From an uncultured bacterium (GTDB lineage: Bacteria; Cyanobacteriota; Vampirovibrionia; Gastranaerophilales; Gastranaerophilaceae), in NCBI GenBank assembly GCA_947073645.1, contig CAMTMK010000021.1, positions 1 to 32,675 on the forward strand: DNA of 32,675 nt, read 5' to 3'. The translations under genes and the position numbers were made by a program. The number at the start of each line of letters is the position of its first letter. Within the stretch, counting starts at the first letter, position 1. Positions 6,225 through 29,122 of the stretch are shown in pieces. The notes below the pieces were generated by a model. The model was not told where the DNA came from. It saw only the letters and a list, made by a program, of their open reading frames with translations, and ran no database searches.

Positions 6225-6440
6225 TTACGGAAATATTTTTTTAATATTCCAAGTTGCATCTCCAATAAGTTTTGAAGCATAAATATATGCGTGCGCTTCT
6301 TCATCCAGACTGTTATATTTTAATGCATTAAATAACAAATCATTAACACATTCTATTTTATCTATTTCAATTTTAACAACTTTGAGTTTTGTTTCGTCAT
6401 CAATCTCAATCAAATCATCCATATTCATGTAGTCAATCAT
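6225..6440 (-). CDS. Small acidic protein of regulator module A
   Basis: The protein starts MIDYMNMDDLIEIDDETKLK and has 71 residues. The ATG at 6440 has a clear AGGAG ribosome site in the mRNA; the longer upstream reading has none and crosses the promoter palindrome. It is acidic with a predicted helical C-terminal half (about 30-68) and no membrane segment. It is transcribed divergently from the XRE repressor gene at 6531, and its promoter -10 box lies inside a 38-base palindrome, so repression by that regulator is likely. I do not recognise the family; an antitoxin-like or partner role is speculation. Confidence 0.65.
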   Translation of the reverse strand: MIDYMNMDDLIEIDDETKLKVVKIEIDKIECVNDLLFNALKYNSLDEEAHAYIYASKLIGDATWNIKKIFP

Positions 6441-6530: not shown

Positions 6531-6746
6531 ATGGACAAACAAACAGTTCTAAAGAAAATAAGTAAAAACATACAACAAGTCAGAAAAGAAAAAGGCTATA
6601 CTCAAGAAAGTTTTGCTGAAAAAATGGATGTTTCTTGGAGCTATGTTTCAAAATTAGAATCAGGTATATTAAATTTATCATTGGGCAAAATTGTAGAACT
6701 TGCAGATTATTTAGAAGTTGATGTAAAAGTTTTACTTAAATTATAA
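6531..6746 (+). CDS. XRE-family HTH repressor of module A
   Basis: A stand-alone helix-turn-helix protein of 71 residues. The HTH_3 domain covers about residues 9-65, with the typical TQESFAEKMDVSWSYVSKLE scanning and recognition helices followed by LSLGKIVELADYLEV. There is no additional effector domain. The start at 6531 lacks a recognisable ribosome site; an AATAAT 6 bases before it could make the mRNA leaderless. It likely binds the adjacent 38-base palindrome and represses itself and the divergent small gene. The promoter of the downstream RNA/peptide unit begins within its last codons. Confidence 0.88.
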   Translation: MDKQTVLKKISKNIQQVRKEKGYTQESFAEKMDVSWSYVSKLESGILNLSLGKIVELADYLEVDVKVLLKL

Positions 6747-6747
6747 G
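6718..6747 (+). promoter_or_regulatory. Putative promoter of sense RNA, module A
   Basis: TTGATG (6718-6723) and TATAAG (6742-6747) with an 18-base spacer lie across the end of the XRE gene. A transcript starting near 6754 would run about 190 bases to the terminator at 6890-6945. The boxes are near-consensus but not perfect. The RNA could also be made by read-through from the XRE promoter. Confidence 0.4.
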
Positions 6748-6759
6748 GGCAGCCCTGAA

Positions 6760-6809
6760 AACCTCCGACGTCACAACATATAGTGATAGATATGGGCGGA
6801 AAGGAGGTT
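6760..6809 (+). promoter_or_regulatory. Ribosome-site-sequestering leader hairpin, module A
   Basis: AACCTCC at 6760-6766 is perfectly complementary to GGAGGTT at 6803-6809, which contains an ideal Shine-Dalgarno sequence placed 4-8 bases before the ATG at 6814. Pairing would hide the ribosome site in the full-length RNA. Such occlusion is known from many type I toxin mRNAs; here it is inferred from sequence only. Confidence 0.5.
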
Positions 6810-6813
6810 AAAG

Positions 6814-6891
6814 ATGAAACTAAGAGCAATTAAAAAAGCTCTACTGGTAATAGAGCTTTTAATTAAATTGATTTTAGTAGTAATCAATTAA
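6814..6891 (+). CDS. 25-residue hydrophobic peptide (candidate type I toxin)
   Basis: The ORF reads MKLRAIKKALLVIELLIKLI and ends LVVIN: a basic N-terminus followed by an unbroken hydrophobic stretch long enough for one membrane helix. An AAGGAGGT ribosome site, the strongest in this region, lies just upstream. The ORF contains two inverted repeats (6834-6843/6851-6860 and 6866-6873/6882-6889), and its TAA forms the base of the terminator stem. These features match membrane-active type I toxins in general design. The alternative is a purely structural RNA with an accidental ORF. No homologue is recognised. Confidence 0.5.
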   Translation: MKLRAIKKALLVIELLIKLILVVIN

Positions 6892-6939
6892 GGGGTGATA
6901 CAGTTGGTTAAGTTCTAGCGGTGCTTAGCCAACTCCCTT
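6832..6939 (-). ncRNA. Putative antisense RNA, module A (about 108 nt)
   Basis: The promoter at 6946-6973 would start a transcript near 6939 running left. The RNA would begin with AAGGG, contain the complement of the sense terminator stem, and end at the inverted repeat 6834-6860, which on this strand is followed by six U residues (6837-6832), a terminator arrangement. It would be complementary to most of the peptide ORF and to the 3' end of the sense RNA. The layout is like RNAII of par/fst loci. Existence is predicted, not shown. Confidence 0.5.
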
Positions 6940-6945
6940 ATTTTT
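6890..6945 (+). terminator. Terminator of sense RNA, module A
   Basis: The outer stem is AAGGG (6890-6894) with CCCTT (6935-6939). The inner stem is 6902-6912 with 6924-6934, eleven pairs around an 11-base loop, followed by five T residues. One inner pair is U-G in the sense RNA; the same position is C-A on the opposite strand. The structure therefore fits the sense transcript better. Confidence 0.65.
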
Positions 6946-6973
6946 ATTATAACCTATTTTCAAAAAATTTCAA
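6946..6973 (-). promoter_or_regulatory. Antisense promoter, module A
   Basis: On the minus strand TTGAAA (6973-6968) and TATAAT (6951-6946) are separated by 16 bases. The promoter points into the peptide ORF from its 3' side. The same promoter type occupies the same place in module B. To its right, 6974-7086 holds only a GTGCC/GGCAC hairpin at 7003-7015 and the short CGTGCGTAGCAC repeat at 7063-7074. Confidence 0.6.
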
Positions 6974-7086
6974 GCCCTTTCTTGGTTGCTCGCGTTTAAC
7001 GGGTGCCAAAGGCACTTTCCATATAAGATATTGAAAAATTTTACCAATATTTAATATAGCTACGTGCGTAGCACCTCGCAATCCGC

Positions 7087-24414: not shown

Positions 24415-27357
24415 ATGATTTGTCCGATATGCAAAAAAGAAGTTCCGGATAATACTTTAAAATGCCCTTATTGCAAAGCTCGTACGGGTTTAGTCTGCAA
24501 GAACTGCAATACGGTAAATTCAATATTTGATTATAAATGCAAAAAATGCGGAACTGAAATTTTAAAAATCTGTCCCAACTGTAAAAGCGTTAATTTTCCA
24601 AATGCTGAAAAATGTCGAAAATGCGGATATGCTTTTTCACAGCCCAAAACAGTTGAACAGTTGGAGTATCCTGCAAATCTTATTTCCCAACAGAGTGCTA
24701 AAAACATTCTTATTAAAGGGATTACATCAAGAGATAAAAAAATATTTTCGCTCAGCGGTGAAAAAGGCTGCGGAAAAAGCGTTGTCTTAAAATCTGTTAT
24801 ACAAGATTTAAAAGGCTATTCTTGGATTTACGGCAAATGTACTCCGATTACTCAAATTACATCAGGCGGAGTTATTCAAGATATCTTATTAAACTTATTC
24901 GGACTGCCGAATTTTTGCCTAAACAATATTCAGTTTAAAAAAGATGCTTCAAAATTCTTTAAAAATGAATTTCCCGAACTTGATAACAATGAAATCTTTG
25001 ACCTTTTAAATTTCTTGTATCCGAATACAGAAGGAACTTTTGAAAATATTGTTGCAAGCAAAAATAATACATTTAGCTTTCTGAATAAAGTCTTTGATAA
25101 AATTACTGCTCATGGAAAATTTGTTATTGTTATTGACAATTTTGATTTTATCGACGGGTTTTCATATGAATTTATCAGTAAGTTTGTAAAAAAAGAAAAT
25201 ATTTGGAAAAATTTAAAACTCCTAATTCTTTATAATGAACCAAAACCCGCAAAAGGATATTTTTACTTTCCGTCACTAAAAGACGAAAATATATATTTAG
25301 ACATAGGTATTGCACCGTTAGAACCAAAACAAATCGGTATTCTCCTTGAACAAAAAACAAAAAAAATTAAAAATTTCCCGACTTTTTCACAAGCCGAACT
25401 TAATGATATTTATAGAATAAGCAGAGGCAACCCATCATACATAAATCAAGCATTATGCCTGAAACATGATTGTATGTTATGTGAACAGGAATTTGAAATA
25501 AGTACAACATTCAAAGGCTTATTGGAGCACAGACTGGCACTGTTGTCACATCTAAACCCGAAAGCATACGAAATCCTTCTTGGTTCTGCAATTATTGGCG
25601 ATAAGATTAACATAAACCTTGTTAAAGAGATTTTTGAAGTCAGCGATACAGAATTTAGAAAAATCATAGTTTACCTTAAAAGAATGGATTATATCAATGC
25701 GGTAAATGAGATTTACTGTGAATTTAATTCACTTCTTTTATGGGAAACAATCCTGAAAACAGCTAAAAACGATGAAAATTACACAAAAATCAACAAACAA
25801 ATTTTCACATATCTTACAGGATTTACCTTAAACTCACATGCAATTCTCGGAATTGTAGCGCAAAACTTAAAACAGCCTGAATTATCACTTGAAATTTGGA
25901 CACGAAACACAAGACTTGCATCGTTTATAGGCGACTTAAACCTTTATGCAATTTCACAAAAACAGTCAATGGCACTGATTAATGAATTTGATGAAAATGA
26001 TACTTTGAAAATCCGCTACAATATCTCAGAAAGATTAGGCAAACTTCTATCCAATTCAAATCCTACAGAAGCTATGGAATATCTTCCCGATGCAATCTCT
26101 AACGCTCAAGCAATAGGCGACAGCCCGAAAGAAGTTGAACTCCTTGCATATCTCGCTTCCTGCTGCCGCAAAACAGGAAATTACTTCGGCGAAGTTGAAT
26201 GTGTTGATGCTGTTTTGGAAAAAGTTAAACCGGAAAATGATATAGATATTGCACTTTTAAAAGCTTCAAAACTCGGCGCACTGCTAAATATCGGAAACTG
26301 CGGACAAATCGTTAATATGGTAGATAATGAAATTATGCCTATTCTCGACAGATATTTCAGCAAAAAACAAAGCGCTCAAGACCCAAAACTCGGATTTATG
26401 TATGAAACCTGGCTCAGAGTTTACCTAATTCTTGCAAACGCACTTGTTATGCAAGGTAATGACAGGTCATTTGAGATTTTAACAATCCTCTTTGATATTA
26501 TCGACAGAAACCAAATTAAAGACGAATTATTCATTTGCAAATGTAAACTTACTCTTGCTTTTGCAAACACAATGAAGGGGAATTTCCAAGCTTCCGAACA
26601 AATGCTCGAAGAAGTTCTTAAACTTTACCGGGAAAACATAATGGATAATGAAACAATCCTTCGCTGGAACTTCATTAACATAATTAATAATTTCTTCAGA
26701 AAACGTTATCACAGAATGCAGGAAGACCTATTCCAAATCGTAACTTTTGCCAACAACAATGGTGACAATTTCACTAAAAATATATTGAAAACATTGTTAG
26801 GCAAAATCTTCCAAGATAACGAAAATTCAAAACAAGCACTGGAAATTTATAACGATCAGGTTGCATATTTTGCAAAAGAAAAAATGGCAATGGGCGCACT
26901 TCTTGCTTGGTATTTAATCGCAGATGCGACATTGGATACAGAAGGCCCGCAAAGTGCAATGGAAATTGCAGAGCAGGCGCTTGAAGTTGCACAAAACCCC
27001 AAAATTAACAATTACTTTTTTACGATATTGCTAAAAACAGTTATCGCAAAATGTGCAATAACAAATTCAGATTTTGAAACAGCAAAAATTCATATTGAAG
27101 GAGCAATCCTAATCGCACGTAAATTCAACCTAAAAGATATGTTATCGAGATTATACCTGCTTTACGGCAAGTATTTCCAAGAACTCGGTTTAATGAAATC
27201 GCCAAAACAGATTGAATATTTACAGGCATCTGATAAATTATACAAACAATCAAAAGAACTTATAGACCAGACAAAAAATAAATATGTTTATCAAGATCTG
27301 AAAAAATCCCAAAGTGTCTTGAGTTCATTCTGCAAATTACATAGTATTGAAATCTGA
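24415..27357 (+). CDS. Zinc-ribbon STAND-type ATPase with TPR-like repeats
   Basis: Protein of 980 residues. Three CxxC-x10-CxxC zinc ribbons are at C3/C6/C17/C20, C28/C31/C42/C45 and C53/C56/C67/C70. A P-loop GEKGCGKS is at 115-122 and a Walker B FVIVIDNFD near 236-244. The winged-helix-like region contains ISRGNPSYINQAL, a STAND/MalT-type sensor motif. The second half (about 480-980) is all-helical with TPR-like units. STAND ATPases act as signal-driven switches. ATG 24415 is chosen over TTG 24403 because it begins right before the first ribbon. It is coupled to the sigma-like gene by a 1-base gap. Confidence 0.85.
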   Translation: MICPICKKEVPDNTLKCPYCKARTGLVCKNCNTVNSIFDYKCKKCGTEILKICPNCKSVNFPNAEKCRKCGYAFSQPKTVEQLEYPANLISQQSAKNILIKGITSRDKKIFSLSGEKGCGKSVVLKSVIQDLKGYSWIYGKCTPITQITSGGVIQDILLNLFGLPNFCLNNIQFKKDASKFFKNEFPELDNNEIFDLLNFLYPNTEGTFENIVASKNNTFSFLNKVFDKITAHGKFVIVIDNFDFIDGFSYEFISKFVKKENIWKNLKLLILYNEPKPAKGYFYFPSLKDENIYLDIGIAPLEPKQIGILLEQKTKKIKNFPTFSQAELNDIYRISRGNPSYINQALCLKHDCMLCEQEFEISTTFKGLLEHRLALLSHLNPKAYEILLGSAIIGDKININLVKEIFEVSDTEFRKIIVYLKRMDYINAVNEIYCEFNSLLLWETILKTAKNDENYTKINKQIFTYLTGFTLNSHAILGIVAQNLKQPELSLEIWTRNTRLASFIGDLNLYAISQKQSMALINEFDENDTLKIRYNISERLGKLLSNSNPTEAMEYLPDAISNAQAIGDSPKEVELLAYLASCCRKTGNYFGEVECVDAVLEKVKPENDIDIALLKASKLGALLNIGNCGQIVNMVDNEIMPILDRYFSKKQSAQDPKLGFMYETWLRVYLILANALVMQGNDRSFEILTILFDIIDRNQIKDELFICKCKLTLAFANTMKGNFQASEQMLEEVLKLYRENIMDNETILRWNFINIINNFFRKRYHRMQEDLFQIVTFANNNGDNFTKNILKTLLGKIFQDNENSKQALEIYNDQVAYFAKEKMAMGALLAWYLIADATLDTEGPQSAMEIAEQALEVAQNPKINNYFFTILLKTVIAKCAITNSDFETAKIHIEGAILIARKFNLKDMLSRLYLLYGKYFQELGLMKSPKQIEYLQASDKLYKQSKELIDQTKNKYVYQDLKKSQSVLSSFCKLHSIEI

Positions 27358-27375
27358 AAACAAATATGTTATAAT
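27347..27375 (+). promoter_or_regulatory. Antisense promoter, module B
   Basis: TTGAAA (27347-27352) and TATAAT (27370-27375) with a 17-base spacer. The -35 box overlaps the stop region of the ATPase gene. It faces the peptide ORF of module B from the 3' side, exactly as in module A. Confidence 0.65.
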
Positions 27376-27379
27376 GAAG

Positions 27380-27422
27380 AAAAGGGCGGAGCAAGTTACA
27401 GCTTGCCCCATTAAAAGCCCCT
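27380..27422 (-). terminator. Terminator of sense RNA, module B
   Basis: Inner arms 27409-27402 and 27395-27388 form an 8-pair stem with a 6-base loop. Outer AGGGGC (27422-27417) pairs with GCCCT (27387-27383) with one bulge, and four T residues follow. One inner pair is G-U in the sense RNA but A-C on the other strand. The peptide stop codon TAG is part of the outer stem. Confidence 0.55.
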
Positions 27423-27475
27423 ATTTTGTTGATTTAAGAGTTAATATTATCGTCAAGATTAATATTAACTCTTTT
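27382..27475 (+). ncRNA. Putative antisense RNA, module B (about 94 nt)
   Basis: From the promoter at 27347-27375 a transcript would begin near 27382 with AAGGG, pass the complement of the sense terminator and end at a perfect 14-base inverted repeat (27436-27449 and 27460-27473) followed by T residues. It covers the 3' two thirds of the peptide ORF. Size, 5' sequence and terminal hairpin match the module A antisense RNA. Predicted only. Confidence 0.5.
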
Positions 27476-27495
27476 GCCGTTATAGCAATTATCAA
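27421..27495 (-). CDS. 24-residue hydrophobic peptide (candidate type I toxin)
   Basis: From TTG at 27495 the ORF reads MIIAITAKELILILTIILTL then KSTK, one hydrophobic helix with a basic end. A purine-rich AAAGGGGGTGG site precedes it by 5 bases. A GTG at 27504 is in frame but too close to that site. The ORF contains a 14-base perfect inverted repeat. The non-ATG start and the repeat weaken the coding case, but the layout equals module A: peptide, stop codon inside the terminator stem, antisense promoter. It could instead be a structured RNA only. Confidence 0.42.
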   Translation of the reverse strand: MIIAITAKELILILTIILTLKSTK

Positions 27496-27582
27496 CGCTA
27501 CCACCCCCTTTCTTTGCGGTTATCCAAATTTATAGTTTGTCCCTCAAAGTATGAAAGATGGATAGAGCTTACCCTCGTTATA

Positions 27583-27611
27583 ATAATATATCACGAGCGA
27601 GAATAAGTCAA
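27583..27611 (-). promoter_or_regulatory. Promoter of sense RNA, module B
   Basis: On the minus strand TTGACT (27611-27606) and TATTAT (27588-27583) with a 17-base spacer. A start near 27576 gives a sense RNA of about 195 bases to the terminator at 27380-27422. The leader contains TATCCA and TGGATA, which can pair. Confidence 0.6.
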
Positions 27612-27621
27612 TATTATTAAA

Positions 27622-27849
27622 TTAGATATCAAAAATAAAAAGCTTGTGAAGCTCGATATCTAAAGCCTTTGCAATCGCACCGACGGTTTCAACGGTGGGC
27701 GACTGAACACCACGTTCAATAGAACTAATAGAATTGGTACCTACGTTAGATAATTCTGCGAGTTTTTCTTGAGAAAATCCTTTTTTTAGTCTTTCTAGTC
27801 TTATTTTTACACCCACTTTATAGGTAATTGTATCTGATTTATCATTCAT
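27622..27849 (-). CDS. XRE-family HTH repressor of module B
   Basis: Protein of 75 residues starting MNDKSDTITYKVGVKIRLER. The HTH_3 domain spans about 13-68 (FSQEKLAELSNVGTNSISSI, then ERGVQSPTVETVGAIAKALD). ATG 27849 is chosen; the longer reading crosses the operator. There is no ribosome site: an extended -10 (TGGTATACT) ends 6 bases before the ATG, so the mRNA is probably leaderless. GTATAC repeats in the intergenic region overlap this -10 and that of the divergent gene, consistent with autoregulation. Confidence 0.88.
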   Translation of the reverse strand: MNDKSDTITYKVGVKIRLERLKKGFSQEKLAELSNVGTNSISSIERGVQSPTVETVGAIAKALDIELHKLFIFDI

Positions 27850-27855
27850 ATTCAC

Positions 27856-27913
27856 AGTATACCAGTTGACAAATAATTTACCATATGGTATACATGTAAT
27901 ATTCACTGTATAC
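27856..27913. promoter_or_regulatory. Divergent promoter with three GTATAC operator-like sites
   Basis: GTATAC occurs at 27857-27862, 27888-27893 and 27908-27913. The first overlaps the XRE -10 box (27861-27856) and the second overlaps the rightward -10. Rightward promoter: TTGACA (27866-27871), N17, TATACA (27889-27894), essentially consensus. ACCATATGGT (27880-27889) is an added palindrome. Likely bound by the module B repressor. Confidence 0.65.
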
Positions 27914-27924
27914 AAGGAGAATAA

Positions 27925-28083
27925 ATGCAAGACGAGATTATTGAAAAAGCATCAAAGATTTTGAAACGAACACAATATCAATTACGATATACTCTTGCCG
28001 ATTTGCATAAGTGCAGTTTGGATATAAATACATTAGAAAACCTTCTCAAAACCGACAAGGACAACAAAAAAGCTCCCCAATAG
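27925..28083 (+). CDS. Small basic protein of regulator module B, 52 residues
   Basis: The ORF begins MQDEIIEKASKILKRTQYQL and ends with DKDNKKAPQ. An AAGGAG ribosome site is 5 bases before the ATG, and a consensus promoter lies upstream, so coding is well supported despite the length. It is predicted helical and has no membrane segment. It is divergent from the XRE gene and occupies the place held by the 71-residue protein in module A, but the two are not visibly related. No family recognised. Confidence 0.68.
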   Translation: MQDEIIEKASKILKRTQYQLRYTLADLHKCSLDINTLENLLKTDKDNKKAPQ

Positions 28084-28095
28084 GAGAGCTTTTTG
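28065..28095. terminator. Bidirectional terminator between module B and GGGtGRT gene
   Basis: The stem AAAAAGCTC...GAGCTTTTT, closed by a CC/GG pair with one mismatch, overlaps the stop of the 52-residue ORF and is followed by T residues on both strands. It also serves the leftward gene at 28118. Confidence 0.75.
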
Positions 28096-28117
28096 TAATA
28101 TTTATTCGTGCGTAGCA

Positions 28118-29122
28118 CTATCTGTTTAACGCACCTGCAACAGCTACTGCAACTGCAACAGTCGCACCAACCATCGGGTTGTTACCCATACCGATTACAC
28201 CCATCATTTCTACGTGAGCAGGAACTGATGATGAACCTGCAAACTGAGCGTCACCGTGCATTCTTCCCATAGTATCTGTCATACCGTAAGAAGCAGGACC
28301 TGCAGCTACGTTATCAGGGTGAAGTGTTCTTCCTGTACCGCCGCCAGATGCTACTGAGAAGTATTTTCTGTCGTTTTCAAAACACCATTTTTTATAAGTA
28401 CCTGCAACAGGGTGTTGGAAACGAGTTGGGTTAGTTGAGTTACCTGTAATAGATACGTCAACACCTTCTTTAATCATAATTGCAACACCTTCAGATACGT
28501 CATCAGCACCGTAGCATTTTACTTTTGCTCTTTCGCCGTCTGAGAATGGAGTTTCTTTAACAACTTTCAATTCGCCAGTTTTGAAATCATATTGAGTTTC
28601 AACAGCTGTGAAACCGTTAATTCTAGCGATAATATAAGCTGCGTCTTTACCAAGACCGTTCAAGATTACTCTCAAAGGTTCTTTTCTTACTTTGTTAGCG
28701 TTTCTAGCGATACCAATAGCACCTTCAGCAGCTGCGAATGATTCGTGACCAGCCAAGAAACAGAAGCATTTTGTTTCTTCTCTCAACAACATAGCAGCCA
28801 AGTTACCGTGACCGATACCAACTTGACGTCTGTCACCTACAGATCCTGGGATTGCAAATGCCTGCAAGCCTAAGCCGATAGCTTCAGCAGCTTCTGCAGC
28901 AGATGCAACTTCTTTTTTAAGTGCAATAGCGCAACCTAAAGTGTATGCCCAAACTGCGTTTTCAAATGCGATAGGTTGAATACCTTTTACAATCGCATCA
29001 ACATCAATTCCTTTTGATACGCATAGTTCGCGTGCTTCTTCCAAGTTTTTGAAACCGTATTCAGGTAAAACTTTTTTCAAAGAAGCTTCACGTCTATCTT
29101 GTCCTTCAAATTTTACTGTCAT
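28118..29122 (-). CDS. GGGtGRT family protein
   Basis: Protein of 334 residues named for the motif found here as GGGTGRT at 260-266, in SVASGGGTGRTLHPDN. Other conserved-looking blocks are GIGHGNLAAMLLREETKCFC, then FLAGHESFAAAEG, and the C-terminal MGMGNNPMVGATVAV-like segment. The family is known from anaerobic bacteria, and its biochemical role is not established. It follows the IscU/NifU-like gene by 31 bases, a pairing that recurs in anaerobes as I recall. The stop TAG overlaps a short CGTGCGTAGCAC repeat. Confidence 0.9.
   Translation of the reverse strand: MTVKFEGQDRREASLKKVLPEYGFKNLEEARELCVSKGIDVDAIVKGIQPIAFENAVWAYTLGCAIALKKEVASAAEAAEAIGLGLQAFAIPGSVGDRRQVGIGHGNLAAMLLREETKCFCFLAGHESFAAAEGAIGIARNANKVRKEPLRVILNGLGKDAAYIIARINGFTAVETQYDFKTGELKVVKETPFSDGERAKVKCYGADDVSEGVAIMIKEGVDVSITGNSTNPTRFQHPVAGTYKKWCFENDRKYFSVASGGGTGRTLHPDNVAAGPASYGMTDTMGRMHGDAQFAGSSSVPAHVEMMGVIGMGNNPMVGATVAVAVAVAGALNR

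Follow-up and report, generated by a model that had tools for sequence, protein, structure and literature searches.

The 32,675-nucleotide (nt) contig CAMTMK010000021.1 of an uncultured bacterium of the family Gastranaerophilaceae, referred to in its full length as the window, contains two loci, modules A and B, in each of which a small open reading frame (ORF), a gene for an XRE-type repressor, and a short RNA unit with convergent promoters lie side by side. This raises the question of whether each locus is one system and what the RNA unit encodes. We argue, with a probability of roughly 80%, that the RNA unit is a type I-like unit of a toxin peptide and an antisense RNA, for which we infer the toxicity of the peptide and the action of the antisense RNA; the 24-residue membrane-type peptide and the opposing small RNA would probably be a toxin and its RNA antidote. 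The argument is built by comparing sequences, which shows that the units are homologous, that their ORF is constrained as coding sequence and has been replaced, that promoters are conserved and structures covary, and that the unit is independent of the XRE gene.

A compact RNA unit with two convergent promoters

All elements that the initial annotation had described in module B (27347-28095) could be read from the sequence where it had placed them, i.e., a 52-amino-acid (aa) ORF, divergent promoters bearing GTATAC sites, an XRE repressor, an RNA promoter, a 24-residue hydrophobic ORF, and a convergent TTGAAA-N17-TATAAT promoter. On the minus strand, the XRE gene is followed by a TTGACT-N17-TATTAT promoter (27583-27611), a leader, the Shine-Dalgarno (SD) sequence GGGGGTGG (27501-27508), a TTG-start ORF of 24 codons for the hydrophobic peptide MIIAITAKELILILTIILTLKSTK, the predicted toxin (27421-27495), and a GC-rich hairpin with a T run. 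The predicted toxin mRNA of ~195 nt lies at 27379-27576 (minus strand; folding z = −5.35). On the plus strand, the convergent TTGAAA-N17-TATAAT promoter (27347-27375) would give an antisense RNA of ~95 nt (27381-27477; z = −4.97), placed by its promoter and terminator and predicted to be the antitoxin. Its terminator is an inverted repeat within the peptide ORF (27436-27473), a long and AT-rich hairpin with a T run at 27471-27475, while a second hairpin (27388-27409) serves both as the 3' terminator of the mRNA and as the 5' stem-loop of the antisense RNA. The antisense RNA would first form the complement of the mRNA terminator hairpin and end at the ORF hairpin.

The unit is a family confined so far to Gastranaerophilales

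In a DNA search of the genus, query positions ~480-754, which hold the RNA unit only, were matched together in many genomes, independently of the XRE and 52-aa genes at positions 1-475. Alignments of three to four units from the window's own genome were too poor for a model, and we therefore used homologues from the genus. Iterated profiles identified 111 near-full-length units in related genomes, 83 of them distinct by flank. According to the profile, the part that is conserved and mobile runs between and includes the toxin-side and antisense promoters at 27347-27618 (minus strand; ~270 bp), and the functional boundary at 27618 leaves the XRE and 52-aa genes outside. Information content drops to background (~0.2 bits) outside both −35 boxes, directly at the antisense one and a few bases ahead of the toxin one, which is what would be given by selection on two promoters and the RNAs between them. 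TATAAT or a close variant is present in the antisense promoter of 110 of 111 units, the −35 element TTGAC(T) of the peptide mRNA promoter is kept in most of 37 units, and the SD forms GGAGGTGAT and GGGGGTGAT are conserved across the family.

The initial annotation considered it unlikely that the layout had arisen twice by chance. This view is supported, because the profile finds the RNA unit of module A (6703-6973, plus strand; peptide MKLRAIKKALLVIELLIKLILVVIN at 6814-6891) with E = 5e-18 in addition to the 111 units, and has zero matches in 400 kb of control DNA of the same genome. The statement that the small proteins and peptides of the two modules differ in sequence holds for the proteins on the XRE side, but the RNA units of A and B are homologous at the nucleotide level. 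A scan of the same genome with the promoter pattern TTGAA-N18-TATAAT was abandoned as a finder of units, since most of its 24 matches were ordinary gene promoters.

For counts across genomes, we used R1, a covariance model of the 3' half of the unit, which is weaker than possible because it was built on alignment A4 (A4 and A5 misplace one hairpin type by one base). Within the genus, R1 matched 24 of 33 genomes in a patchy pattern; in the order, it matched 70 of 192 genomes and 21 of 45 genera; and of 292 genomes sampled across the phylum it matched 57, every one of these within the order Gastranaerophilales. When 84,980 species genomes were scanned for an exact pattern, 25 stretches were returned, and the named records were mostly metagenome-assembled genomes of Candidatus Gastranaerophilales/Melainabacteria; the differently named ones include FR900439.1 ("Fusobacterium sp. 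CAG:439"), which is equal in length to a contig of the genus (G001:C39). The family is therefore known so far from this order only. Genomes carry multiple diverged copies, and tandem arrays exist; one in G078 (L120) consists of four units at a spacing of ~305 bp. We also observed decayed or truncated units that lack an intact ORF (L194 in G000:C9, L090, L129, L093, and L073 at 1318-1446), as expected from turnover of such modules.

The peptide ORF is under coding constraint

An ORF of 19 to 25 codons follows the SD sequence in 109 of the 111 units, starting with GTG (47), ATG (41), or TTG (21). All 101 distinct ORFs are open in the peptide frame, while stops occur in frame +1 in every case and in frame +2 in 87. 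Nucleotide changes at codon positions 1, 2, and 3 number 1528, 659, and 1796, respectively, so that position 2 is the most conserved, and the ratio of nonsynonymous to synonymous changes (pN/pS) is 0.50 in the peptide frame versus 0.79 and 1.82 in the other frames. Half of the residues of the family peptides are Leu or Ile, Gly and Pro are absent, and the mean hydropathy (GRAVY) is 1.83. These substitution patterns indicate that the 24-codon peptide is under coding constraint.

Covarying hairpins in the two predicted RNAs

The folding z-scores given above (−5.4 for the mRNA and −5.0 for the antisense RNA when rounded) place the single-sequence folds well below those of shuffles. In the consensus structure of the mRNA, 92.4% of cells are paired, with 121 double-sided changes; shuffles had a mean of 39, none of 500 reached 121, and slid versions had at most 45, although such scores can be inflated by relatedness of the units (pair counts are from alignment A3). 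Covariation is strongest in the ORF hairpin that forms the antisense terminator (helix 6, compensatory changes in 5 of 10 stem pairs) and in the mRNA terminator hairpin (helix 8, double-sided changes in 7 of 8 pairs), which exists in at least two forms across the family. Helices 1 to 3 correspond to predicted sequestration of the SD sequence by the leader and to pairing of the mRNA 5' end (AGGGUAAGC) with its own 3' half. They are paired in 90-97% of cells, but give weaker covariation evidence because their pairs are mostly invariant or vary on one side only. In silico, the mean probability that the SD sequence is unpaired is 0.20 in the full-length mRNA and 0.45 once ~28 nt are lost at the 5' end.

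Parts of the unit are exchanged at fixed sites

Across pairs of units, the identities of segments are nearly uncorrelated (leader versus ORF, r = 0.16; ORF versus 3' end, r = 0.03). At the orthologous site of L059 and L072, the flanks are 82-100% identical, the leader 98%, and the 3' end with the antisense promoter 100%, while the ORF is 57% identical; at that of L066 and L067, the leader is 95%, the 3' end 90%, and the ORF 50% identical. Matching counterparts of the replaced ORFs are present elsewhere (MIFTVNVKELALLLMIILTLKSTK in both L059 and L064; the MVINTEEL/MVINTQEL types in L067, L072, and L178), which favors recombination over divergence in place. Conversely, the window and L054 share the locus and a nearly identical peptide but have different terminator hairpins, and among the classified units (many are unclassified by hairpin) toxin type shows no association with hairpin type (chi-square, P = 0.58). 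These comparisons indicate that relatives have swapped the peptide ORF at one genomic site while the rest of the unit stayed nearly unchanged. The suggestion in the initial annotation of a modular system with exchangeable parts thus applies within the RNA unit (peptide ORF and terminator hairpin) and between the unit and its neighbors, but not to an XRE-linked whole.

Since the antisense terminator is written in toxin codons, toxin and antidote specificity might travel together. Tentatively, the two would move jointly between loci as a cassette of ~75 bases, and genomes would hold orthogonal pairs reshuffled by recombination.

A probable type I-like mode of action

In the scheme that we infer for transcription, antisense action, toxicity, and recombination, one promoter would produce the ~195-nt mRNA for the hydrophobic peptide, and the convergent promoter would produce the antisense RNA over the 3' part of this mRNA, reaching from the mRNA terminator into the ORF. 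Fresh mRNA would, by prediction, be translated poorly, with the leader paired to the SD sequence and the 5' end to the 3' half. Pairing of the antisense RNA with this half probably brings about cleavage or blocking of the mRNA; should the supply of antisense RNA fail, leftover mRNA could become activated and the peptide would damage the inner membrane. Recombination among copies would replace either the peptide ORF, together with the antisense terminator inside it, or the terminator hairpin.

The RNA unit has no match in Rfam, Pfam, or NCBIfam (for the toxin, none at E < 0.1 in Pfam and NCBIfam); matches in Rfam at a loose threshold were chance matches only. The open-license literature searched contained neither a type I system of this lineage nor the peptide strings. 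Of the general features of type I systems, the unit has the constrained short ORF for a hydrophobic peptide and, by sequence, a gene for an overlapping antisense RNA with its own promoter and terminator, the transcript being predicted. Known type I systems with antisense RNAs that overlap at the 3' end or lie opposite the ORF follow the same logic (PMC4147584, PMC6733600, PMC8309996).

AapA/IsoA of Helicobacter pylori resembles the unit in its structured toxin mRNA of ~200-225 nt with SD sequestration and long-distance 5'-3' pairing, its 80-nt antisense RNA opposite the ORF, its small hydrophobic peptide, and its several module-specific copies per genome (PMC6733600). Of these features, the 5'-3' interaction and SD sequestration are found here with weak covariation support. 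By contrast, AapA3 has 30 rather than 24 aa with no sequence relation seen, IsoA3 masks the SD region whereas the antisense RNA here ends inside the ORF, and AapA mRNA is activated by 3' trimming (PMC6733600), which in silico does not expose the SD sequence of the unit. TxpA/RatA and BsrG/SR4 of Bacillus subtilis likewise have convergent transcripts overlapping at the 3' end (75 and ~120 nt versus ~95 here), and their antisense RNAs are thought to act largely via mRNA degradation or an indirect block of translation; their toxins are longer (TxpA, 59 aa), and RatA leaves the coding region free, whereas the overlap here runs deep into the ORF (PMC4147584). An antisense terminator built from toxin codons also sets the unit apart from these two systems, and Pfam and NCBIfam gave no match to their Hol_Tox-type toxins. 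Fst/par RNAI-RNAII of Enterococcus faecalis shares convergent RNAs and a small hydrophobic peptide but has a common terminator and interacts via direct repeats outside the ORF, and Ibs/Sib of Escherichia coli shares a hydrophobic peptide (19 aa), an opposite-strand RNA, and multiple copies, but Sib spans the entire ibs coding region and the ribosome-binding site (PMC4147584, PMC8309996). Membership in the Fst/Ldr family (par, RNAI/RNAII, fstAT) is not indicated by Pfam, NCBIfam, or Rfam, and its motif APxxxGxxx needs the Gly and Pro that the family peptides lack. To our knowledge, Ibs peptides do not have the pattern ...TEKAL...LK of the RNA unit family.

Several observations weigh against a toxin-antidote unit of this kind. 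The antisense RNA stops inside the ORF, short of the SD sequence, so that a block of translation would have to be indirect, and blocking the antisense region in silico leaves the predicted SD exposure unchanged. SD release by 3' truncation, as in AapA3, was considered and is unsupported, since predicted exposure again does not change. The phage, plasmid, and IMG/VR searches made also did not find the family (in IMG/VR, no match to two patterns of the unit) and so lend no support to a role in addiction to mobile elements; phage matches of 30-60 AT-rich bases (E = 0.08-1) were dismissed as chance. Finally, short hydrophobic peptides may also be non-toxic membrane proteins. The peptide, which is conserved and coding, could be an antisense-controlled regulator, e.g., one tuning a membrane complex. 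We regard this as improbable, because a housekeeping regulator would explain the multiple diverged copies, the patchy presence, the arrays, the replacement of ORFs, and the decayed copies less well than an element of the selfish or addiction type.

The XRE cassette is separate from the RNA unit

The gene for the XRE/Cro-CI repressor (27622-27849, minus strand; 75 aa; HTH_3, E = 1.8e-15) is divergent from the 52-aa gene (27925-28083, plus strand), which has a homologous ORF in L052 and L053. Between them, the divergent promoters contain three GTATAC sites (27857, 27888, and 27908, within 27857-27913), i.e., three of the eight in the whole window within 57 bp, which are largely kept in relatives and form a probable operator. 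The toxin promoter has no GTATAC site. The 52-aa protein has no match in Pfam or NCBIfam. In type II toxin-antitoxin systems with an XRE antitoxin, this protein is paired with a toxin protein in one operon; here, the best NCBIfam match of the XRE protein is a Y4mF-type antitoxin at 43 bits (below the cutoff of 71.65), and its partner gene is divergent and not codirectional. Small XRE genes repeatedly occur with a divergent gene for 52-92 aa without a known family (L058, L063, L080, and L092), and in the window such genes lie beside XRE at 6225-6440 (minus strand) as well as at 27925-28083.

The initial annotation implied that ORF, XRE gene, and RNA form one system. The recurring layout and the antisense unit stood up to analysis, while the XRE gene and the RNA unit proved separable. 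At the orthologous locus, between a TPR/ATPase gene and a GGGtGRT gene, genomes G027, G007, and G018 have XRE and the divergent small gene but no RNA unit, G030 has the RNA unit and the terminator of the 52-aa gene but no XRE, and the window has both; the loci with XRE but without the unit are L052, L053, and L056. In the genome-wide check, 22 of 26 XRE matches in the window's own genome had no RNA unit within 420 bp downstream; of the four with a unit within ~420 bp, one has it in the opposite orientation (L004, G000:C1 at ~14.5 kb). There, a 56-aa ORF (MIKKKFTPIGNSWGIIIPKAILEG...), which from reading it we take to be AbrB/MazE-like, lies between the XRE gene and the unit. XRE genes without the RNA unit as the rule had been named beforehand as the finding that would speak against one system, and this is what emerged, because 93 of 115 units (~81%) have no XRE within 500 bp.

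A three-part system with the RNA unit under the control of the XRE repressor and the 52-aa protein would draw support from the common order of modules A and B and from the 22 of 115 units with XRE within 500 bp, a count inflated by non-independent orthologous loci, compared with 1.2% of random positions in a control sample and ~2% expected if the 26 XRE matches were spread over the whole genome. The neighborhood is therefore not random, yet it is not the rule; all four relative orientations of XRE and unit occur, every unit brings promoters of its own, and the parts come apart at the same locus in relatives. We consider such a system quite improbable. Instead, the comparisons indicate that the XRE/52-aa cassette is a separate passenger next to the RNA unit, and it is probably a self-repressing element. 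That the unit is a non-autonomous repeat resembling a miniature inverted-repeat transposable element, with incidental ORF and promoters, is very improbable: it is short, dispersed over many intergenic places, and has inverted-repeat character (TTGA...TCAA ends), but its ORF is under coding constraint and retains the start codon and SD sequence, its hairpins have compensatory changes, and two promoters are conserved. Moreover, the alignments inspected, in which no systematic search for target-site duplications was made, revealed none.

Other repeats in the genome

An exact palindrome-like repeat, GTGCGTAGCAC, lies beside both modules (7064-7074 and 28108-28118 of the window; expected count, 0.12 with one mismatch allowed). 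It also occurs near some G tracts (L241, and L211 with one change). The AT-rich genome contains dozens of G9-G12 tracts, e.g., at G000:C6:2735 and in the C16:28118 region (L033 and L043) and at L199, L202, L216, and L220. About half of 29 sampled tracts follow codon 7 to 14 of prepilin-like genes (...FTLAEVLITLGIIGVVAA), in or out of frame, which suggests that pilin-like genes undergo phase variation on a large scale.

Implications for the Gastranaerophilales

If the type I-like reading of the RNA unit is true, it would add a toxin-antitoxin family in non-photosynthetic gut relatives of Cyanobacteria, in which our searches found none described. A single hairpin, in which several pairs show compensatory changes, would serve at once as protein code, as mRNA structure, and as the terminator for transcription from the other strand. 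Since the exchange of parts took place at fixed sites, the set of over 100 aligned natural variants of the unit would amount to a natural experiment on which part determines toxin identity, antidote recognition, and cross-talk.

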